A stretch of DNA of 41,982 nucleotides from a virus (IMGVR_UViG_3300031699_000003:1-41982); one strand, 5' to 3'. Positions 1 through 41,982 are shown, numbered from the stretch's first letter. A program made the numbers and translations. The notes: generated from the sequence alone by a model not told the origin.

Positions 1-107
1 AGCGAATGGTGGCTCCGAAGCGGAGGCCCAAATTTGCCCTTATTGCAGTGGCGATCCTGTAATTGAATATTACGATAATAAATGGAAATGCTTTTATTGC
101 AATGGTA
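1..107 (+). repeat. Terminal direct repeat of the contig (same as 41876-41982)
   Basis: Bases 1-107 equal 41876-41982. Because the repeat also occurs at 2749-2855 inside the sequence, it may reflect circular closure, or assembly breakage at the duplicated attC-like module. The gene reading frame is continuous across the junction (41733 to 130), which favours true circularity or permutation. Confidence 0.9.
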
Positions 108-130
108 CGGGCAAACTTCACCATTCGTAA
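2..130 (+). CDS. C-terminal part of zinc-ribbon cassette protein (begins at 41733)
   Basis: This reading frame enters from the contig end and stops at TAA 128-130. The visible 42 residues contain CPYC and CFYC about 20 residues apart, a zinc-ribbon arrangement, followed by NGTGKLHHS. Joined with 41733-41982 it makes a protein of about 90 residues. The same 42 residues occur in the gene at 2534, coded by an identical DNA repeat, so the ribbon behaves as a shared C-terminal module carried on the attC-like site. Function unknown; zinc binding is inferred from the cysteines only. Confidence 0.75.
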   Translation, partial: ANGGSEAEAQICPYCSGDPVIEYYDNKWKCFYCNGTGKLHHS

Positions 131-195
131 AACGTTGTCGGCAATTCGGCCACCAAAACCGGCCCATCCGTGGGCCGGAGAATTGAAGGAGAGAG

Positions 196-366
196 ATGAT
201 AAAAAAGATTTTGGCTTTTTTTAGATTGAGTAAAACAGTGGTGTGTGAAGTATCTGCAAGCATGGGTGATTATGATTATCATGATTATCCAGACTCAATC
301 GATGGAGAGCCTTGGCACATGGTACTTTTAACGTGCAAGAGGTGCGGAAAGAGGTTTTATATATGA
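196..366 (+). CDS. Small hypothetical cassette protein with C-terminal CxxC (56 aa)
   Basis: Starts at ATG 196 behind GAAGGAGAG, ends at TGA 364-366. It has a basic, hydrophobic N-terminus (MIKKILAFFRL), an acidic Tyr/Asp-rich centre and CKRCGKRF at the end, half of a zinc knuckle. It is the first gene of the cassette starting at 134 and overlaps the next start in an ATGA-like arrangement, which implies translational coupling. The leader of this cassette (140-180) contains a GC-rich hairpin, CCGGCCCATCCGTGGGCCGG. No family recognised. Confidence 0.7.
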   Translation: MIKKILAFFRLSKTVVCEVSASMGDYDYHDYPDSIDGEPWHMVLLTCKRCGKRFYI

Positions 367-641
367 AAAAAACACATTGTGATATCTGCGATGTTGTAAT
401 CAACGATAAAAAAACAATCATCATTGAGAGGGAAAATAAAAAATTCAGGTTAACGGCGCAATACCTTACCGGAAACGGTAGGTGGAACCACATGTGGAAG
501 AATGTTGATATTTGCGATGTCTGTCTAATTTCTTTACTGGATAGCTTTGTGGAAGATCAAGAAAGCGCCGTCCCTGGCGCGGTGGCCGAACAGCCTACAA
601 CATCGCCATTATGCCAGCCGGAAGACCGGCCAGCACAATAG
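363..641 (+). CDS. CxxC hypothetical cassette protein (92 aa)
   Basis: I chose ATG 363, which overlaps the upstream stop and gives MKKTHCDICDVVINDKK; an earlier in-frame ATG at 312 lies inside the upstream gene without a ribosome binding site. Two CxxC pairs, CDIC near residue 6 and CDVC near residue 55, suggest one zinc site. The last 20 or so residues are low-complexity (PTTSPLCQPEDRPAQ) and are read through attC-like site c, so they probably reflect the recombination site and not a selected domain. Second gene of a two-gene cassette; function unknown. Confidence 0.75.
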   Translation: MKKTHCDICDVVINDKKTIIIERENKKFRLTAQYLTGNGRWNHMWKNVDICDVCLISLLDSFVEDQESAVPGAVAEQPTTSPLCQPEDRPAQ

Positions 642-656
642 CGCGGACAGTTATTT
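595..656 (+). other. attC-like site c (62 bp)
   Basis: The left core CTACAAC (595-601) and right core GTTATTT (650-656) enclose a long stem. ATCGCCATTATGCCAGCCGG pairs with CCGGCCAGCACAATAGCG through a GAAGA-like loop, with several mismatched or bulged bases. The length is close to the short class of attC. The stop codon of the gene at 363 lies inside the site. Confidence 0.8.
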
Positions 657-697
657 GCAATTTGCCTTTAAAATAATAGCCGCGCAAGGGAGGATTT

Positions 698-865
698 ATG
701 TCAATTGTTTATGAAGTTAAATGTGCTGGATGCGGAAAAGGTTTGGATGTTGAAAAAGTTTTTTTAGATTCTGCAGATGATCTTTGCGTTGAAGTTCACC
801 CATGTGAATATTGCGTTGAAGTAGCGCGGCAAGAAGGTAAGGAATCGGCAAACAGCGAAGCGTAG
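698..865 (+). CDS. Small two-CxxC cassette protein (55 aa)
   Basis: Starts at ATG 698 after GGGAGG and ends at TAG 863-865. It has CAGC near residue 9 and CEYC near residue 36, the spacing of a small zinc ribbon, with an acidic linker between. It is the only gene in the cassette starting at 650. Its last codons (KESANSEA) fall in the 35-bp conserved stretch that precedes the left core of sites d and a. Function unknown. Confidence 0.7.
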   Translation: MSIVYEVKCAGCGKGLDVEKVFLDSADDLCVEVHPCEYCVEVARQEGKESANSEA

Positions 866-881
866 CAAGAGGGCACAGCAC

Positions 882-1025
882 AAATAACAAATAAAGGGTG
901 GAAATGTGGCAACGATACACCTCAGGGACTACCTTTAATGGGACAGGTGTCATTAAGCGCAACCCGGTGCTATATCCGGGATAGTTCCCGCGTTGCCCCA
1001 CTTCACCCTTTATCAAACGTTGTGT
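882..1025 (+). other. attC-like site d (144 bp, probably not coding)
   Basis: The left core AAATAAC (882-888) and right core GTTGTGT (1019-1025) flank nested arms: AATAAAGGGTG with CACCCTTTATC, and inside them GTGGCAACG with CGTTGCCCCAC. The left core matches its own cassette start at 650 (GTTATTTG, 8 of 8). A 26-codon reading frame from the ATG at 904 to 984 sits between the arms, but it has only a weak GGGTGG before it and no recognisable product, so it is not called as a gene. Confidence 0.8.
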
Positions 1026-1056
1026 GCAATGTCAATTTTTCTGAAAGGATTATTAT

Positions 1057-1317
1057 ATGGCCGCTAAACCGAAGTTGAAGCCGTGCCCGTTCTGCGGTGG
1101 TAAGGCTGGAATATTTGGAAACGAACGTGACCACTTTTACGTGGCGTGTACTAATAAAGTATGCTTTTGTGCTTTGGGCGAAATGTATCTGCCTGGTGAC
1201 GAGCCTGACCACATGTTCGGTGATGAACCGTCTGCCGCGTACAATTGGAACGAGCGGCCTGAAGCTGTGGAAGGAAAAATTGACACGGCACACAACACGC
1301 GCAAGCCAAAACGGTAG
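1057..1317 (+). CDS. Lar-type restriction-alleviation-like zinc protein (86 aa)
   Basis: The N-terminal motif LKPCPFCGGKA, a second cysteine pair around residues 32-38 and the closing AAYNWNERPE match the Lar family layout (CPFCGG near the start and A-x-x-x-W-N-x-R near the end). Family members related to Rac prophage Lar can lower type I restriction; many phage members are untested. Starts at ATG 1057 with GAAAGGA upstream. The tail NTRKPKR is read into attC-like site e. A cassette-borne anti-restriction gene would suit a phage early operon, but that role is inferred from the family. Confidence 0.75.
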   Translation: MAAKPKLKPCPFCGGKAGIFGNERDHFYVACTNKVCFCALGEMYLPGDEPDHMFGDEPSAAYNWNERPEAVEGKIDTAHNTRKPKR

Positions 1318-1350
1318 AACCCGCATCGGCTATGCGCGGGAACGTTGGTG
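1290..1350 (+). other. attC-like site e (61 bp)
   Basis: The left core ACACAAC (1290-1296) and right core GTTGGTG (1344-1350) surround a stem of CGCGCAAGCC with GGCTATGCGCG. The left core with its flank, GGCACACAAC, is the exact reverse complement of the first bases of its own cassette at 1019 (GTTGTGTGC, 9 of 9). The Lar-like gene ends inside the site. Confidence 0.85.
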
Positions 1351-1412
1351 TCAATAAAATTTTGTCGGAATGAATTAAATAATAGCGCGCATAAGCAAAG
1401 AGAAAGACAAAT

Positions 1413-2114
1413 ATGAAAATATCATGGTTTAGCGCAGGAGTTTCAAGCGCTGTGGCAACAAAAATGGCAAACCCTGACCGTATTATATATTTCGACATTG
1501 AAGACCAGCACCCAGATACATACCGTTTTTTAAAAGATTGTGAAAAATGGTTTGAAAAAAAAATTGAGATTTATAAGTCTCCATATCGAAGCGTTGATAC
1601 GGTTTGTCGTGCGGTTCGATATTTAAATGGTCCCGCTGGCGCGGCGTGTTCACTTCGGTTAAAAAAATGGATGCGAAAAGAATGGGAGCAAAAAAACCCT
1701 GGTTGTCACACTTACATTTGGGGGTTTGATGGAACAGAAAAAAACAGAATGGAGCGCATTAAAGAATCTATTACGATGCATAACCACTTATTTCCACTAC
1801 ATGACAGAACGAAAGGTGAGGGACATGGTATTTTACGTCACGCTGGTATTTTACGTCCTGCTATGTACCGTATCGGTTTTCGGAATAATAATTGCATTGG
1901 ATGCTTACGAGGGGGGATGGGTTATTGGAACAGGATTAGGAGCCATTTCCCTGCTGTGTTTGCTTTTCGTTCTCACCTTGAGAGAGACATTGGGGCGCAC
2001 ATTTTAAAAGAATGTTATTTGGATGAGCTTGATCCAAAACGTGGGCGATTTGAAGATGAAATTTTTCCAGATTGCGGTCTATTCTGTGAAATCGAAGAAG
2101 GCGCGCAAGAATGA
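1413..2114 (+). CDS. PAPS-reductase-like PP-loop protein (233 aa)
   Basis: Residues 7-12 (SAGVSS) form the PP-loop that binds the nucleotide in the adenine nucleotide alpha-hydrolase superfamily; YFDIED and HPDTYRF follow. Near the end, NNNCIGC (158-164), GGMGYWNRIR and LDELDPKRG match a phage-encoded phosphoadenosine phosphosulfate reductase-like family. Proteins of this superfamily activate sulfate or sulfur, and relatives (DndC) act in DNA sulfur modification, but no dnd partners are present, so the substrate is unknown. This is the largest cassette gene and is followed 17 bp later by attC-like site f. The ribosome binding site is weak (AGAGAAAG). Confidence 0.75.
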   Translation: MKISWFSAGVSSAVATKMANPDRIIYFDIEDQHPDTYRFLKDCEKWFEKKIEIYKSPYRSVDTVCRAVRYLNGPAGAACSLRLKKWMRKEWEQKNPGCHTYIWGFDGTEKNRMERIKESITMHNHLFPLHDRTKGEGHGILRHAGILRPAMYRIGFRNNNCIGCLRGGMGYWNRIRSHFPAVFAFRSHLERDIGAHILKECYLDELDPKRGRFEDEIFPDCGLFCEIEEGAQE

Positions 2115-2131
2115 AGGTAAAATTTTACAGC

Positions 2132-2184
2132 CACCAACAAATGTGTTATGCAATTAAAACTGCATAACACATCGAACGTTGGTG
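2132..2184 (+). other. attC-like site f (53 bp)
   Basis: This is the clearest short site. The left core CACCAAC (2132-2138), the perfect 11 bp stem TGTGTTATGCA / TGCATAACACA and the right core GTTGGTG (2178-2184) follow each other, with asymmetric spacers between cores and stem as in attC. It lies 17 bp after the stop of the PP-loop gene and its left core matches the cassette start at 1344. Confidence 0.88.
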
Positions 2185-2216
2185 TCAATGCTTTTTAACT
2201 AAAGGAGTTCGCGCAA

Positions 2217-2477
2217 ATGTCAATTCAAGTAACAATAAAAGACGGTCATTTTATTACTCTTGATGAATTGGTTTCTATTGTCCCGCTTTCGGTTGCAGCA
2301 AAAGAATTAAAAGAGTTGCGCTCACGAATTAAGGATTTACGCTCACAAGACATCGGAACAAAAGCACAGGCCACCAACAAACAAAGTGTGCCATTAGAAA
2401 ATGTAATATGTCCTGACTGTAAATGCGATCGGGTACAATATCGTTGTTCAAATTGTGGTTTTGAGTGGTGCGACTAA
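2217..2477 (+). CDS. Zinc-ribbon cassette protein (86 aa)
   Basis: Starts at ATG 2217 after AAAGGAGTTCGCGC. Residues 1-45 are a coiled-coil-prone segment (AAKELKELRSRIKDLRSQ). A linker ATNK is encoded by the left core of attC-like site g, and residues 63-85 form a four-cysteine ribbon (CPDC, CSNC) ending FEWCD. The architecture is the same as in the genes at 2534 and 41733: variable N-terminus, ATNK linker from the attC core, zinc ribbon from the attC loop. Possibly nucleic-acid or protein binding; function unknown. Confidence 0.75.
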   Translation: MSIQVTIKDGHFITLDELVSIVPLSVAAKELKELRSRIKDLRSQDIGTKAQATNKQSVPLENVICPDCKCDRVQYRCSNCGFEWCD

Positions 2478-2503
2478 CGGCACACGTTTGTCACACGTTG
2501 CCG
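2372..2503 (+). other. attC-like site g (132 bp, coding)
   Basis: The left core CACCAAC (2372-2378) and right core GTTGCCG (2497-2503) are joined by ACAAAGTGTGCC on the left and GGCACACGTTTGT on the right, which pair fully apart from one bulged G. The intervening loop encodes the C-terminal zinc ribbon of the overlapping gene. The left core matches the start of its cassette at 2178 (GTTGGTG). Confidence 0.8.
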
Positions 2504-2533
2504 GAAATACAGGCTTATGAAAGGAGTTTTGGC

Positions 2534-2926
2534 GTGACAATTAAATCTACAACAGATAATTATGTTATGTGCGAATTGAACGGTGCAGATGAGTGCGGTA
2601 TTTGGCAATGGATGAGTAAAAGATTTGAAGGATGTAAGGTTGAAATTGAATTTGATACTGTTTTTAAAGGGTATCAGCCTGCTCCGACAATTTGGATTAG
2701 AGGTACGCCAAAACAGGGAGATCGGAACGGTGGGCCAGCCACCAACAAAGCGAATGGTGGCTCCGAAGCGGAGGCCCAAATTTGCCCTTATTGCAGTGGC
2801 GATCCTGTAATTGAATATTACGATAATAAATGGAAATGCTTTTATTGCAATGGTACGGGCAAACTTCACCATTCGCAACACGGTTGGTGTCAATCTGTTT
2901 TAACTATGAAAGGCGGCGCAAAATGA
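2534..2926 (+). CDS. Zinc-ribbon cassette protein, GTG start (130 aa)
   Basis: I place the start at GTG 2534, seven bases after AAAGGAG; a GTG at 2465 would add 23 residues across the attC-like site with no ribosome binding site. Residues 1-58 are a unique domain containing ELNGADECGIWQW. The linker ATNKANGGSEAEAQ and the CPYC/CFYC ribbon are encoded by the 127-bp repeat shared with the window ends. A CAA replaces the stop found in the other copy, so 15 residues run on beyond the ribbon into the next cassette. This looks like a fusion product of cassette exchange. Confidence 0.75.
   Translation: MTIKSTTDNYVMCELNGADECGIWQWMSKRFEGCKVEIEFDTVFKGYQPAPTIWIRGTPKQGDRNGGPATNKANGGSEAEAQICPYCSGDPVIEYYDNKWKCFYCNGTGKLHHSQHGWCQSVLTMKGGAK
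2740..2889 (+). other. attC-like site h (150 bp, coding, duplicate of site b)
   Basis: The left core is CACCAAC (2740-2746), the arms are CGAATGGTG and CACCATTCG, and the right core is GTTGGTG (2883-2889). 127 bases are identical to site b, and similarity continues upstream with two mismatches (GGGCCAGCCACC here, GGGCCTTCCACC there). Its left core does not match the start of the cassette it now ends (GTTGCCGG at 2497) but does match the cassette that carries site b, so this site was probably acquired from a relative of that cassette. Confidence 0.8.
2749..2875 (+). repeat. Internal copy of the zinc-ribbon/attC repeat (127 bp identical to 1-127)
   Basis: Exact duplicate of positions 1-127, coding for the same zinc ribbon in the same relative frame. 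The copies diverge one base after the right stem arm: TAA stop in the first copy, CAA in this one, so the protein here extends 15 residues further. Confidence 0.95.
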
Positions 2927-3132
2927 AAGCAAACAAACAAACCCCTGGCGTTGGAAAATATCTTAAATACCGCGCCGCCAAGAATTCGGAACCGGCCATC
3001 ATCCCACAACAACCGCTTTGTGGTTCGGCAAAGCCTTCACCCAAATGCTACTCCATCGGCTGTCCGGCTATTTGGCATGATAAATGTACGTCAACAATGT
3101 ACGGGAAGTGCGGTGTTCGTGATAGTGAGTAG
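2923..3132 (+). CDS. Cys-rich cassette protein (69 aa)
   Basis: Starts at ATG 2923, overlapping the previous stop (ATGA), and ends at TAG 3130-3132. The N-terminus is basic (MKANKQTPGVGKYLKYRAA). Residues 32-65 hold five cysteines, including CYSIGC, CTSTMYGKC and a preceding LCG, all encoded in the loop of attC-like site i. It is likely to bind zinc or iron through these residues. Function unknown. Last gene of array 1. Confidence 0.65.
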   Translation: MKANKQTPGVGKYLKYRAAKNSEPAIIPQQPLCGSAKPSPKCYSIGCPAIWHDKCTSTMYGKCGVRDSE

Positions 3133-3159
3133 CACTTCACAAAGCGTCGGACGTTAAAA
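3004..3159 (+). other. attC-like site i (156 bp, coding)
   Basis: The left core CCACAAC (3004-3010) and right core GTTAAAA (3153-3159) flank CCGCTTTGTG / CACAAAGCG stem arms. The loop codes for the Cys-rich C-terminus of the gene at 2923, whose stop is just before the right arm. The left core, with flank TCCCACAAC, does not match the start of its own cassette (GTTGGTGTC at 2883) but is identical to the left core of site k. Confidence 0.75.
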
Positions 3160-30054: not shown

Positions 30055-30252
30055 TTAAACCCTCGTCAAATATCGAACCGGCTTTACCTGCCCGGCCCTC
30101 AGCATTGACTCACAAATTCGCTCAGCATACGGTGAAGGTTTGACTGTTGTAAGGTCTGGACATCGAGTATTTAATGCAAACCCACACCAAGGACAATATT
30201 TTATCCCGAGACCAACACAATGAATAGCTACCGCGCAATTTTTACAAGGCAT
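30055..30252 (-). CDS. Small zinc-ribbon protein (65 aa)
   Basis: MPCKNCAVAIHCVGLGIKYC, followed by PWCG, gives two CxxC pairs about 14 residues apart, a zinc ribbon. The C-terminus is basic (MLRAGQVKPVRYLTRV). The start is 25 bp inside the 3' end of the upstream O-antigen-ligase-like gene. Function unknown. Confidence 0.6.
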   Translation of the reverse strand: MPCKNCAVAIHCVGLGIKYCPWCGFALNTRCPDLTTVKPSPYAERICESMLRAGQVKPVRYLTRV

Positions 30253-31355
30253 TGATTCCTCCTAACCTGCCCGGCCAACCCGATGGCCGTGGCAATATAG
30301 AAAGTGTGCTCCGGTGTCCTCATGCCAAACACGAATGAGGTGATTATCGTTGCGGCAAAGGCGACACCGAGATAAAACGATTTACGGAAACAGGCGACCG
30401 TTGCGGCAGTCATCAGGAACACAAAGAAGGCAGTTCCGATGATCCCGTTTTCTGCGAGTGATTGACCGAATTCGTTATGTGGATGATAATATCTTGTTTT
30501 TGCCTTATCTGCATAATAACCCCACGTCCCAGGCCCGGCACCGAAATAAGGATTTTTCATAAACATTTCCCGCGAAACTTCAGGAAAACCACATTGATTG
30601 CGACCCCATATTGAAATTTGACCAAATGGGTTATAATCATCAAGGGATTTGTTTAGCGGCATGAACATTGCACCAATCCCGGCAAAGATCAAAAAACACC
30701 CGACCACAAGCAACCGCCTTTTTCCCTTGATCCCGCGTGAGAAGTAACAACCGCAAGCGACATACTCAAGAAAGGCCACCGCACAACCGGCCCGAGAAGA
30801 TGCGCCAACAATAGCTACAGCAGAAAGCAGTATAGCCGCAATCGCTCGTTTCCGCCACCGTTTAAACTGAAGCACATAAAAAGGAAACGGGATCAGAAAC
30901 AGAATGATATATGCGAACTTATTGCTCGCCCCGATTGTTCCGACGAAAACAGATTCATTATGCTTTGACCATGTGCCGAGATCGAAAAAAGCAAGGCCGC
31001 ACTCGATGATCAATACCACGGTCGCAATCTTGGCAACGGTCTCCAGCTTAACGTCGGACTGCCATAACCACATGATTATTCCCGTAGCCATAGCAAGCCT
31101 GGCAAGCTCCAGGTGTCCCAACATCCAGCCGCCGGTCGCAAAATAGGATCTGGTCGCCTGGTAACAAAGATAGACAATCGGGAGAAAATGGAAGTTATGC
31201 CAGACCCGCGCCCCGGTCTTGCTGATCCAGCAATAAGACCCGAGAAGCACAAGGGCCACGGTCATGGCCGATTCGCTGCCGATGCGAAGGTAAACACCGA
31301 GAACGACCGGAAGGAAGACGAAAGCAGAAAAGACGAAATAAAAAGGTTGGCTCAT
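30228..31355 (-). CDS. O-antigen ligase/Wzy-type multispan membrane protein (375 aa)
   Basis: About ten membrane spans are visible. The last third has NPYFGAGPGTWGYYADKAKT, then HPHNEFGQSLAENGIIGTAF, the signature of the Wzy/WaaL (O-antigen ligase/polymerase) family, where a periplasmic loop holds the catalytic His and Arg/Tyr. Such proteins act on lipid-linked glycans at the periplasmic face. In a phage it may change the host surface to block superinfection. It overlaps terS by 4 bp and sits between terS and terL, an unusual place. The substrate is unknown. Confidence 0.75.
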   Translation of the reverse strand: MSQPFYFVFSAFVFLPVVLGVYLRIGSESAMTVALVLLGSYCWISKTGARVWHNFHFLPIVYLCYQATRSYFATGGWMLGHLELARLAMATGIIMWLWQSDVKLETVAKIATVVLIIECGLAFFDLGTWSKHNESVFVGTIGASNKFAYIILFLIPFPFYVLQFKRWRKRAIAAILLSAVAIVGASSRAGCAVAFLEYVACGCYFSRGIKGKRRLLVVGCFLIFAGIGAMFMPLNKSLDDYNPFGQISIWGRNQCGFPEVSREMFMKNPYFGAGPGTWGYYADKAKTRYYHPHNEFGQSLAENGIIGTAFFVFLMTAATVACFRKSFYLGVAFAATIITSFVFGMRTPEHTFYIATAIGLAGQVRRNQCLVKIAR

Positions 31356-36086: not shown

Positions 36087-36131
36087 AAACAAGGGCATCT
36101 TTTGGACAGTTGTGGGAAAGGAGCCTATAAA

Positions 36132-36419
36132 ATGAAAATCGCGGCCTATGAAAAGTATCCGGTTCGAGAATGTCGTTCAATGCACTCATGTGCTGAGTGT
36201 GGTAAAGATATTAAACTTGGTGATTTTTACAGGGATGGAGGCTACGGTCGTCGGGTGCATGAAATTTGCTTTCAGGCCGCGAAGATGGAAAAGGAATATA
36301 AGGAATCGGCTCCCATCCCACAACAAACGAATGGTGAAACCTGTACATGTCATTTGATGGGCGGCGGTAAAATGTGTAAGCATTGCCTTAATAAAATAAT
36401 TGGTGGTACTTTTATATAG
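36132..36419 (+). CDS. Cassette protein with two zinc-type Cys sets (95 aa)
   Basis: ATG 36132 follows AAAGGAGCC. RECRSMHSCAECGKDIKLGD near residues 12-33 is a zinc knuckle also seen in other phage proteins. The C-terminus ETCTCHLMGGGKMCKHCLNK is encoded within attC-like site k. First cassette of array 2. Confidence 0.65.
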   Translation: MKIAAYEKYPVRECRSMHSCAECGKDIKLGDFYRDGGYGRRVHEICFQAAKMEKEYKESAPIPQQTNGETCTCHLMGGGKMCKHCLNKIIGGTFI

Positions 36420-36445
36420 GCATCACCATTCGTCGCACGTTGTAT
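36318..36445 (+). other. attC-like site k (128 bp, coding)
   Basis: The left core CCACAAC (36318-36324) and right core GTTGTAT (36439-36445) flank arms CGAATGGTGA and TCACCATTCG, which are also the arms of sites b and h. The loop encodes a Cys-rich C-terminus. The left core with flank, TCCCACAAC, is the exact reverse complement of its cassette start GTTGTGGGA at 36109. Confidence 0.85.
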
Positions 36446-36489
36446 GCAAAAATCGCTTACCATAATAGCCGGGAGCTAAGGAGGTACAA

Positions 36490-36693
36490 ATGGATAAACA
36501 GGTAGTTTCAATTAATGGCGGTCATGCGGTAAAAGATGGAGATTCATTGCATCTTTATCGGGATGTCGGAGATAGGTTTTCACGGTATCACGGTTTTCAT
36601 ATTTTTCGCGCCGATTTAATTAAAATATTACCTTTGTTTGACATTAAAATTTTGGTTGAAAATGAAAAGCATAACGACGATTTACCTTTCTAA
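36490..36693 (+). CDS. Small cassette protein (67 aa)
   Basis: ATG 36490 follows AAGGAGGT. Sequence SINGGHAVKDGDSLHLYRDV then GFHIFRADLIKILPLFDI, beta then helix. No Cys pairs. The gap to the next site (36694-36752) carries a 35-bp motif shared with sites a and d but no gene. Confidence 0.6.
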   Translation: MDKQVVSINGGHAVKDGDSLHLYRDVGDRFSRYHGFHIFRADLIKILPLFDIKILVENEKHNDDLPF

Positions 36694-36752
36694 TCCGCTC
36701 CCGGCAGAGATCGGAACGCGATTTCAGAGAAGCGTAGCAGGGAGTAAGGCAC

Positions 36753-36810
36753 ATACAACAAGCCGAAGTGATGCCATTAAAACAGGCACACATTCGGCAG
36801 CACGTTCTGT
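36753..36810 (+). other. attC-like site l (58 bp)
   Basis: The left core ATACAAC (36753-36759) and right core GTTCTGT (36804-36810) flank arms GCCGAAGTGATGCC and GGCACACATTCGGC, with two mismatches. The left core matches its cassette start GTTGTATG at 36439. About 60 bp separates it from the stop of the upstream gene. Confidence 0.82.
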
Positions 36811-36840
36811 GCAAGCCGGGCTAATTAAAGGAGCGCGCCA

Positions 36841-37152
36841 ATGAATTTTATTAATCGTAAAAAGGTAAAAACAAGGAAGCCACATTATTGTACTGGCTGT
36901 ATGGATATTATTCCATCGGGGTCAATGGTAATTCGAGACACTCTTGTCGATGGTGAAATATATTCCGTTTATTTTTGTGATATTTGTGAAAAGGTTTTGG
37001 AAGAATATGGAAATGATATTGAGGAATTTTCAGAAGGTGATTTACGTGAAACAACTGTTTATGAATATTGGTATAAAAAGAGGCGCGCTGAGAAATCGGA
37101 ACGCCCGGCCAACACAGAACAGCGTCATGGTGCAATTAAAAAAGCACCATAA
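36841..37152 (+). CDS. Zinc-knuckle cassette protein (103 aa)
   Basis: ATG 36841 follows AAAGGAGCGCGCC. HYCTGCMDIIPSGSMVIR, then VYFCDICEKVLEEYG gives two CxxC pairs 40 residues apart, as in a family of phage proteins that begin with a chelating pair. The tail (ANTEQRHGAIKKAP) runs through site m. Function unknown. Confidence 0.65.
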   Translation: MNFINRKKVKTRKPHYCTGCMDIIPSGSMVIRDTLVDGEIYSVYFCDICEKVLEEYGNDIEEFSEGDLRETTVYEYWYKKRRAEKSERPANTEQRHGAIKKAP

Positions 37153-37167
37153 CGCAACACATTAACC
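37114..37167 (+). other. attC-like site m (54 bp, A in place of core G)
   Basis: The left core ACAGAAC (37114-37120) and right core ATTAACC (37161-37167) flank GCGTCATGGTGC / GCACCATAACGC. The left core matches the cassette start GTTCTGTG at 36804 over 8 bases. The A at 37161 replaces the G next to the expected crossover, so this site may no longer be a good substrate. Confidence 0.78.
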
Positions 37168-37197
37168 AAAATACCGGCTTATGAAAGGAGTTCGCTT

Positions 37198-37446
37198 GTG
37201 GATGATTTGAAATTAGAAGCATGTAAAACGTGCGGTGGAATTCCAGCAGTTGTAACTTATAACTCTGGTCAAAAATTAATCAGGTGTAAGTGCGGAATGC
37301 AGACAAGTACCAAGTTAACAGTTCGTGCTGCTGCCGATATTTGGAATGGTTATCATGAGCCTTCGTTAAAGGAAGTAATGGTCGATCTTTTATCTGAAAT
37401 ACGCTCACTAAATCAGCGGAACGCCGGTCCTTCGGTTAACAAATAA
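37198..37446 (+). CDS. Lar-like zinc protein, GTG start (82 aa)
   Basis: GTG 37198 follows AAAGGAGTTCGC. ACKTCGGIPAVV, then IRCKCG near residue 28 and VRAAADIWNGYH near residue 45 give the CPxCGG ... C-x-C ... A-x-x-x-W-N pattern of the Lar-like family. A likely role is countering type I restriction, as in the cassette at 1057. Two independent Lar-like cassettes in one genome are notable. Its tail is encoded in site n. Confidence 0.6.
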   Translation: MDDLKLEACKTCGGIPAVVTYNSGQKLIRCKCGMQTSTKLTVRAAADIWNGYHEPSLKEVMVDLLSEIRSLNQRNAGPSVNK

Positions 37447-37563
37447 ATGGTTCAATTGTCGGCCCTGGATAATCGCGGTGATGGCCACGTCAAGGTCCAA
37501 CGGTGGAGGTCCGGTTCGACTCCGGTAGGGGCCGCCAACTGCACCATTTATCACACGTTGTGG
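37434..37563 (+). other. attC-like site n (130 bp) enclosing a tRNA-like sequence
   Basis: The left core GGTTAAC (37434-37440) and right core GTTGTGG (37557-37563) flank ATAAATGGT / ACCATTTAT arms. The left core corresponds to its cassette start ATTAACC at 37161 (TTAACC matches). The terminal loop holds a 77-nt tRNA-like sequence in place of a zinc-ribbon coding loop. Confidence 0.8.
37461..37537 (+). tRNA. tRNA-like sequence inside attC-like site n, possibly degenerate
   Basis: The 3' half is convincing. A GGTTCGACTCC T-arm with four stem pairs is followed by an acceptor strand AGGGGCC, a discriminator G and an encoded CCA. The 5' end GGCCCTG pairs with the acceptor strand at six of seven positions, including one wobble. 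A 4-bp stem GGCC/GGTC with loop ACGTCAA would give anticodon GTC (Asp), but the base before the anticodon is C rather than the usual T. The D-arm is short and poorly formed and the variable region is long, so this may be a decayed or non-canonical tRNA. Folding with tRNAscan-SE or Infernal would decide. Confidence 0.4.
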
Positions 37564-37596
37564 CACATGCCGCCTAATATGAAAGGAGTTAGCGCT

Positions 37597-37923
37597 ATGG
37601 AAAATACACAACTTATGGCTGAATATAAAAAGCACATGATGATATGTAAGAGACCTGTATTGCCAACGTCTGAATTTACATATCATACCACACATTATGT
37701 TCTTTGGTTAGAAAAGGAAGTGGAAAAGGCTCGCGCAAACTCCAAACATAAGAACGGCGGCACGGAAGCGGCAAGTGGGGCAGAGCAGCCACAACAACCG
37801 CAGGGCGAAATTTTTGAATCTCTTGACAGGCTAGAATATTGTTCTCCAAAATCAGAGCCGTGGATTGCTGAAAATGCAAAATTTTTACGAAGCGAGATTA
37901 AAAAACTATCGCCCGTGCGGTAA
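37597..37923 (+). CDS. Cassette protein with acidic/Glu-Pro tail (108 aa)
   Basis: I choose ATG 37597 behind AAAGGAG; the longer frame from 37447 would read through the tRNA-like sequence. Residues 1-45 are helical (MENTQLMAEYKKHMMICKRP, LWLEKEVEKARANSKH). A Gly/Gln/Pro-rich linker (GAEQPQQPQGE) follows, and residues 75-108 are a separate helical unit encoded by site o. Function unknown. Confidence 0.6.
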   Translation: MENTQLMAEYKKHMMICKRPVLPTSEFTYHTTHYVLWLEKEVEKARANSKHKNGGTEAASGAEQPQQPQGEIFESLDRLEYCSPKSEPWIAENAKFLRSEIKKLSPVR

Positions 37924-37932
37924 ACGTTGTCC
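37789..37932 (+). other. attC-like site o (144 bp), last site of array 2
   Basis: The left core CCACAAC (37789-37795) and right core GTTGTCC (37926-37932) flank arms ACCGCAGGGCGA and TCGCCCGTGCGGT. The left core with flank GCCACAAC is the exact reverse complement of the cassette start GTTGTGGC at 37557. The loop encodes the C-terminal 40 or so residues of the gene at 37597. Confidence 0.85.
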
Positions 37933-37959
37933 ACCATAAAACAAAAAAAGGGAAACCAA

Positions 37960-41368: not shown

Positions 41369-41436
41369 ACAGAATGTAAAAGGTGCATAATACGTCTAGT
41401 TATTTTCAATGTGAATTATCTATAGGAGACGGCACT

Positions 41437-41703
41437 ATGGGATATGAGGGATATGCGGATGAAAGGGTTAGATGTGATGTGTGTGGAAAATTTATCGCAT
41501 CATCTGAATATAAGCAAGGACTTGCTTGGGACGATATGCACTTTCCCAATAAAAGTTACCATCTCAAATGCAAGCCCGTGCCGTTAAGAAATAGGAACAT
41601 TCACACAGCGAAGCGTAGCAAGGGGCATAGCACAAATAACAACCGTATGAGTGCCATGCGAAGCGCACAGCATCATACTTTCCCGTTGGTGTCGCTTCGC
41701 TAA
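41437..41703 (+). CDS. Zinc-knuckle cassette protein read through its attC-like site (88 aa)
   Basis: I start at ATG 41437 (AGGAGACGGC upstream) rather than 41383, which lies before the cassette boundary. RCDVCGKFIASSEYKQG, then SYHLKCK gives a CxxC pair with a partner Cys. The last 40 residues (TAKRSKGHSTNNNRMSAMRS) are read through site a and its flank and are probably not selected. First cassette of array 1. Confidence 0.65.
   Translation: MGYEGYADERVRCDVCGKFIASSEYKQGLAWDDMHFPNKSYHLKCKPVPLRNRNIHTAKRSKGHSTNNNRMSAMRSAQHHTFPLVSLR
41634..41691 (+). other. attC-like site a (58 bp)
   Basis: The left core AAATAAC (41634-41640) and right core GTTGGTG (41685-41691) flank an imperfect stem. The left arm CCGTATGAGTGCCATGCG pairs with the right arm CGCACAGCATCATAC with unpaired bases, as in folded attC. 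The left core is the reverse complement of the start of its own cassette at 41399 (GTTATTT, 7 of 7). The 35 bp upstream of the left core is nearly identical to that upstream of site d. Confidence 0.8.
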
Positions 41704-41732
41704 AGCCCACCTATTTATAAAAGGAGCGCAGA

Positions 41733-41982
41733 ATGAAATTTATAAAAGTAAAGCCTTGGCGGTCTGGTCTTGACGGTGAAATGGTGAGGGTGGAAGTGGA
41801 TTTAACGCAAAGCGAATTTTTGGAGTTAAATATTGCACTCAAAGAATTGCGGAACGGTGGGCCTTCCACCAACAAAGCGAATGGTGGCTCCGAAGCGGAG
41901 GCCCAAATTTGCCCTTATTGCAGTGGCGATCCTGTAATTGAATATTACGATAATAAATGGAAATGCTTTTATTGCAATGGTA
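41733..41982 (+). CDS. Zinc-ribbon cassette protein, 5' part (continues at 2-130)
   Basis: ATG 41733 follows AAAGGAGCGC. The first 45 residues (KVKPWRSGLDGEMVRVEVDL, then TQSEFLELNIALKELRNGG) resemble an alpha-beta domain. After a STNKANGGSEAEAQ linker comes the CPYC...CFYC ribbon. The frame continues across the contig junction to TAA at 128-130, about 91 residues in all. The 3' half is encoded by attC-like site b. Confidence 0.7.
   Translation, partial: MKFIKVKPWRSGLDGEMVRVEVDLTQSEFLELNIALKELRNGGPSTNKANGGSEAEAQICPYCSGDPVIEYYDNKWKCFYCNG
41867..41982 (+). other. attC-like site b, left part (completed at 1-140)
   Basis: The left core CACCAAC (41867-41873) begins a long site whose right core GTTGTCG lies at 134-140 after the contig junction, giving about 149 bp in circular reading. 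Stem arms are CGAATGGTG and CACCATTCG. The stretch between the arms codes for a zinc ribbon in the overlapping gene. The left core matches the start of its own cassette at 41685 (GTTGGTG, 7 of 7). From AGCGAATGG onward the site is identical to site h for 127 bases. Confidence 0.75.

Follow-up and report, generated by a model that had tools for sequence, protein, structure and literature searches.

Probable integron-type gene cassette arrays in a tailed phage record without an integrase gene

How does a phage that encodes no integrase come to carry short genes separated by hairpins like those that delimit integron cassettes? The question is raised by the IMG/VR virus entry IMGVR_UViG_3300031699_000003, all 41,982 bases of which were analysed and are referred to here as the window. 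It codes for a terminase, portal-like and head-like proteins, a DnaB-like helicase, exonuclease VIII and a RecT-like annealing protein, and this gene set therefore identifies the record as a tailed phage. Very probably, the window contains two integron-type gene cassette arrays without an integrase gene in the record, that is, phage-borne clusters of attC sites lacking integron integrases (CALINs). Array 1 comprises nine cassettes (41400 across the contig end to 3153; numbered alone below) and array 2 comprises five (36110-37926); both lie on the plus strand, as do all genes assigned to the 14 cassettes, and together the arrays make up about 13% of the phage genome. Fourteen attC-type inverted-repeat sites, cassette-sized genes between them and no intI nearby agree with the definition of a CALIN, for which at least two such sites are required. 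A search of the record for Phage_integrase (PF00589) and Resolvase domains turned up no gene for a tyrosine or serine recombinase, and no attI was recognised there, so that the pair of intI and attI that marks a complete integron is lacking from the record.

In an integron cassette, the remainder of its own R' box stands at the start and R'' at the end, and pairing of the two is required only in the circular form. This was used as a test, in which the R'' of each cassette was picked by the quality of the hairpin stem alone and the cassette start was not consulted. Ten of the 14 cassettes were found to end with the exact 7-base reverse complement of their own start (GTTNNNN). When the owners were permuted, the mean was 1.86 exact matches and at least 10 were reached in 0 of 200,000 permutations, a result conditional on the G^TT boundaries, which were set by eye; the two arrays were pooled in the statistical tests. 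By comparison with the start of the following cassette, R'' matched at 24 of 56 positions (25.3 expected), which is chance. The exact own pairs rise to 11 of 14 when R'' is chosen by fit, and the own-match rule also holds in the positive controls, the arrays of the Tetrasphaera phage TJE1, Shewanella and Vibrio. The own-R'/R'' signature is the trace left by circular cassettes recombined at G^TT and is not predicted by mere hairpins. A strict stem search (threshold 9) recovered eight plus-strand sites, seven of them at the predicted places, as opposed to none or one per strand in first-order Markov shuffles. A sequence-only reading had proposed nine hairpin sites, genes pointing in one direction, recombined integron cassettes and the lack of an integrase for array 1. 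The nine sites were found again at the same positions and the other points held as well, the cassettes being supported by the own-R'/R'' signature; array 2 was added, and the proposed hairpin geometry stood with a measured site length of 53-153 bp in array 1 instead of 53-156 bp.

Could the hairpins that separate the small phage genes simply serve transcript termination or RNA processing, with coincidental GTT and AAC ends? They do sit between co-directional genes, and weak terminator activity of attC-like hairpins has been noted (PMC9892861). However, this explanation predicts neither the own-R match, by which it is contradicted, nor the genes that traverse hairpins and the constant G^TT geometry, and no Rfam family matched in the arrays; it is thus highly improbable.

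It should be noted that the own-R test is blind to which end of the site is cut. As in the reference sites, a C precedes GTT at 11 of the 14 boundaries, and AACAA follows R'' in 10 cassettes. The main open reading frames (ORFs) stop before G^TT in 12 of 14 cases, the exceptions being cassettes 1 and 8, and 11 of 14 cross the left box R''. The bottom strand gives the more stable fold in 10 sites and the top strand in three, with one tie. End motifs, ORF limits and bottom-strand folding thus favour the right-hand G^TT as the cut end. Reversed sites cut at the left box, an idea prompted by a bulge on the opposite arm of four sites, are disfavoured by the ORF limits and by the canonical C-GTT/AAC-AA orientation.

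How closely, then, do these sites resemble known attC sites? None of the 14 R' boxes fits GTTRRRY, and GTT itself is retained everywhere save for one ATT, which bears out the divergent right cores of the sequence-only reading. The sites were folded with shortened loops and DNA parameters alongside 35 references (19 from Vibrio, Shewanella and TJE1 and 16 class 1-type). An extrahelical base or bulge on the R''-L'' arm, defined as in PMC2727003, is present in three of 14 window sites versus 33 of 35 references (Fisher p ~8e-7), and cassette 1 is the sole site in which such a bulge lies 6 bp above the spacer. Four sites (cassettes 5 and 7, and cassettes 2 and 5 of array 2) have a one-base bulge 6 bp above the spacer on the opposite, L'-R' arm. 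The spacer is asymmetric, with 3-6 bases on the L'-R' arm versus 0-3 on the other.

Several results weigh against an origin of the arrays as integron-type cassettes. The sites are without the extrahelical bases, of which the first was termed absolutely conserved by Bouvier et al. 2009 (PMC2727003) and without which attC x attC recombination by VchIntIA and IntI1 fails (PMC2727003). Two covariance models built as stand-ins for the official attC_4.cm, R1 from the Vibrio, Shewanella and TJE1 sites and R3 from the class 1-type sites, match none of the window's 14 sites, even in runs without filters. Cassette 8 is an exception to the own-R rule (R'' CACCAAC, own start GTTGCCG), the searches returned no relative in which cassettes had been gained or lost, and a narrow search did not find a host integron with such sites. 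The sequence-only reading had counted the lack of attC model matches among the outcomes that would speak against it; this is what was observed with R1 and R3, yet both models recover TJE1 sites on which they were not trained, and R1 also recovers untrained Shewanella sites. Considering the own-R test and the detection of the TJE1 sites, the misses reflect divergence of the sites, not their absence.

The missing extrahelical bases bear on two further explanations. According to the first, the phage picked up blocks of a host's chromosomal array on one occasion, through illegitimate or homologous recombination, and these are now frozen relics, inert phage genes. The G lost at one boundary (ATTAACC at 37161), the swapped hairpin of cassette 8 and sites lacking what tested integrases need for excision would all suit such a relic. 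However, the 7-bp R''/R' pairs are still perfect in 11 of 14 cassettes with free choice of R'', and we know of no force other than recombination that would preserve them. In addition, the recognisable cargo is phage-type, and two separate arrays would require two captures. Although illegitimate capture has been proposed for some phage CALINs by Qi et al. (PMC9892861), a frozen relic is rather unlikely here. The second explanation is a cassette system dedicated to phages, in which the enzyme, either a divergent integrase or one from another recombinase family, is encoded by another phage or helper element (or is missing from the record) and acts on hairpins without canonical extrahelical bases. 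The absence of GTTRRRY, the rarity of the R''-L'' bulge and its counterpart on the opposite arm, the spacer asymmetry and the phage-type cargo would fit, but no such recombinase was seen, searches of viral contigs found no other phage with such sites, and the C-GTT and AAC-AA end motifs are still integron-like; such a system is conceivable, though doubtful.

The searches for a recombinase, host and relatives had the following scope. Viral contigs were scanned with three attC-flavoured patterns and with a shared cassette-head pattern, and genome contigs with one attC-flavoured pattern, all without a match; a query of concatenated cassette proteins returned no relative. A scan for IntI motifs yielded almost exclusively class 1 integrases; neither a host nor a cognate intI was found. 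A third model, R2, was derived from the window sites; because it misses long-loop sites, it is poorly suited to probing genomes. Run against 13 integron genomes and 398 genomes of one phylum, it gave one weak match, the large search scoring few candidates per genome.

What do the cassettes carry? The recognisable cargo is phage-type. Cassette 5 encodes a Lar-type restriction alleviation protein (PF14354 41.5 bits, cut-off 28.6; phrog_599 match), and cassette 4 of array 2 a weak Lar homologue (PF14354 19.2 bits, under that cut-off; phrog_599 E 5.3e-5). Cassette 6 encodes a PAPS-reductase-like phage protein (phrog_424 E 1.4e-34; PF01507 23.8 bits, cut-off 22.5), and the product of cassette 3 of array 2 matches phrog_16244 (E 3e-12). 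Several other cassettes encode small cysteine-rich proteins, some with a CxxC segment encoded inside the hairpin loop. Relatives of the cassette 6 gene, which occur in 14 viral contigs and in two phage records, have no such sites on their flanks, and the protein of array 2 cassette 3 has two phage relatives that likewise lie outside cassettes.

The G^TT boundaries of array 1 follow positions 41399, 41685, 134, 650, 1019, 1344, 2178, 2497, 2883 and 3153. Cassette 1 (41400-41685, 286 bp) carries a gene for a CxxC protein at 41437-41703; its R'' AAATAAC at 41634 is the reverse complement of its own R' GTTATTT at 7/7 positions, the stem-only pick having taken an AAC three bases further on (5/7). 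Cassette 2 would, if the record is circular, run from 41686 to 41982 and on through 1-134, with R'' CACCAAC at 41867 (7/7); its gene starts at 41733 and traverses the hairpin, the loop of which encodes a CxxC..CxxC tail, and 1-134 holds the hairpin loop and L' arm up to the G^TT. Cassette 3 (135-650, 516 bp) contains ORFs at 196-366 and 363-641 and a 62-bp attC with R'' CTACAAC at 595 (6/7), and cassette 4 (651-1019, 369 bp) a gene at 698-865 and a 144-bp attC with R'' AAATAAC at 882 (7/7). The Lar-type gene of cassette 5 (1020-1344, 325 bp) lies at 1057-1317, with an attC of 61 bp and R'' ACACAAC at 1290 (7/7). The PAPS-reductase-like gene of cassette 6 (1345-2178, 834 bp) lies at 1413-2114, and the attC of 53 bp, with R'' CACCAAC at 2132 (7/7), has an uninterrupted stem of 12-13 bp. 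For cassette 7 (2179-2497, 319 bp), the gene at 2217-2477 has its cysteine-rich C-terminus encoded within the hairpin (attC 132 bp, R'' CACCAAC at 2372, 7/7). The gene of cassette 8 (2498-2883, 386 bp) extends from about 2534 to 2926, past G^TT, with R'' at 2740 in the hairpin at 2739-2875 (5/7). Cassette 9 (2884-3153, 270 bp; gene 2923-3132; attC 153 bp; R'' CAACAAC at 3007, 6/7) closes the array, and its final G^TT (GTTAAAA) adjoins phage sequence.

The boundaries of array 2 follow 36109, 36439, 36804, 37161, 37557 and 37926. Cassette 1 of this array (36110-36439, 330 bp) has its gene at 36132-36419 and a 128-bp attC with R'' CCACAAC at 36318, and cassette 2 (36440-36804, 365 bp) a gene at 36490-36693 and a 58-bp attC with R'' ATACAAC at 36753. 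Cassette 3 (36805-37161, 357 bp), with the phrog_16244 gene at 36841-37152 and a 54-bp attC with R'' ACAGAAC at 37114, ends where the cleavage G is replaced by A (ATTAACC). Cassette 4 (37162-37557, 396 bp) carries the weak Lar homologue at 37198-37446 and a 130-bp attC with R'' GGTTAAC at 37434, and cassette 5 (37558-37926, 369 bp) a gene at 37597-37923 and a 144-bp attC with R'' CCACAAC at 37789, the final G^TT (GTTGTCC) adjoining phage sequence. All five match their own start at 7/7 positions.

Some features recur upstream of the hairpins or lie within them. A (T)CGGAAC motif precedes R'' by 10-50 bases in many cassettes and stands in differing reading frames (e.g., 2725-2732, 37090-37097 and 41842-41848); within the arrays, CGGAAC occurs seven times on the plus strand and not on the minus strand, which suggests a conserved DNA extension of the sites. 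Cassettes 1 and 4 and cassette 2 of array 2 share a common tail up to R'' (GAAGCGTAGCA...GGCA.A; 41591-41640, 843-888 and 36731-36759), beyond which their hairpins are unrelated. The hairpin loop of cassette 4 of array 2 (37460-37534) resembles the T-arm and acceptor end of a tRNA (GGTTCGACTCC...GGGGCCGCCA). A tRNA was rejected, ARAGORN being negative and Rfam tRNA-Sec scoring 15.2 bits, far under the cut-off; the loop might be a tRNA-derived remnant.

Does array 1 really wrap around the ends of the record? Cassettes 2 and 8 share an identical hairpin, an exact repeat of 137 bases at 2739-2875 and 41866-41982/1-127 that includes the CxxC..CxxC tail and is preceded by unlike gene starts. The 107-base repeat at the termini (41876-41982 duplicates 1-107) falls within this block, and because the block is also present at 2739-2875, closing the circle does not count as independent evidence. 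The wrap of array 1 depends on closure through that repeat, and the other joining of the repeat would yield a 2,748-base cassette circle and a 39-kb circle. Homologous exchange is a possible source of the shared hairpin, and so is an assembly chimera, since the terminal repeat of the contig lies in the same block.

The terminase matches known phages only distantly, with less than half of the protein covered, and no close phage relatives were found among the viral contigs searched. An O-antigen ligase-like membrane protein is encoded at 30228-31355 on the minus strand (Wzy_C 37.4 bits), a hint that the host may be Gram-negative and that surface modification is involved.

How might the cassettes have entered? 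The arrangement TTNNNN-gene-R''-L''-loop-L'-G would, in the circular form, bring the first six bases together with the cassette's own R'' to make up a 7-bp R stem. Circular cassettes would have been inserted successively at G^TT points in the early region of the phage, the substrate being the folded bottom strand exposed by phage replication. Since the record lacks Phage_integrase and Resolvase domains, we favour an IntI-type tyrosine recombinase that would have acted in trans, coming from the integron of the infected cell or from another element. Mobilisation by a host IntI in trans, as the sequence-only reading had proposed, is an inference, as are the identity of the recombinase, the direction of transfer and the benefit to the phage, and cassettes that aid infection, such as anti-restriction genes, may have been retained. 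The empty site of array 1 would be CGTCTAG^TTAAAAAGG. That of array 2 would be TTGGACAG^TTGTCCACC, with a GGACA-GT-TGTCC palindrome that may have drawn in the first cassette; joining 36098-36110 to 37927-37938 gives a near palindrome, GGACAGTTGTCC. A wider proposal is tentative: integron-type cassettes would pass phage genes from one phage to another, their hairpins forming an undescribed attC lineage with missing or mirrored extrahelical strand-choice bases, served by a divergent integrase and invisible to current attC models.

About 13% of this phage genome is put together from integron-type cassettes that carry phage genes, anti-restriction homologues among them, and the sites break a rule that was termed absolutely conserved. 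If these sites recombine, strand choice in integrons needs a further determinant, and cassettes in phages and the environment are undercounted by present searches. Being model-free, the own-R'/R'' test is applicable to entire virome collections.

Phage CALINs have already been published (Qi et al. 2023, PMC9892861), e.g., in TJE1; of six attC sites tested from three virulent phages, five were recombined by IntI1 (PMC9892861). The window resembles these CALINs in having attC-type hairpin cassettes in a phage, one gene direction and no intI alongside, and counter-defence-type cargo is common to both, methyltransferases in the published ones and Lar homologues in the window. In contrast to the TJE1 CALIN with three attCs, the window has 14 cassettes in two arrays, and both canonical-type models detect the TJE1 sites, which also have R''-L'' extrahelical bases, whereas neither applies to most window sites. 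With the sedentary chromosomal arrays of Vibrio and Shewanella, the window shares G^TT boundaries, an own R' that is the reverse complement of R'' and bottom-strand hairpins, but it has no intI or recognisable attI, its R' is not GTTRRRY, its spacer is 3-6 versus 0-3 instead of about 2 versus 2, and extrahelical bases are mostly missing or on the opposite arm. The R''-L''-L'-R' layout and C-GTT are those of class 1 integron cassettes, yet all 16 class 1-type sites have the R''-L'' bulge, and the model built on them misses every window site. The arrays thus work like an integron cassette array but are no canonical members. New over the published phage CALINs are the two arrays with 14 cassettes, sites that fail two canonical attC features and a cargo of anti-restriction homologues, and phages may be trading genes via an unrecognised branch of integrons.

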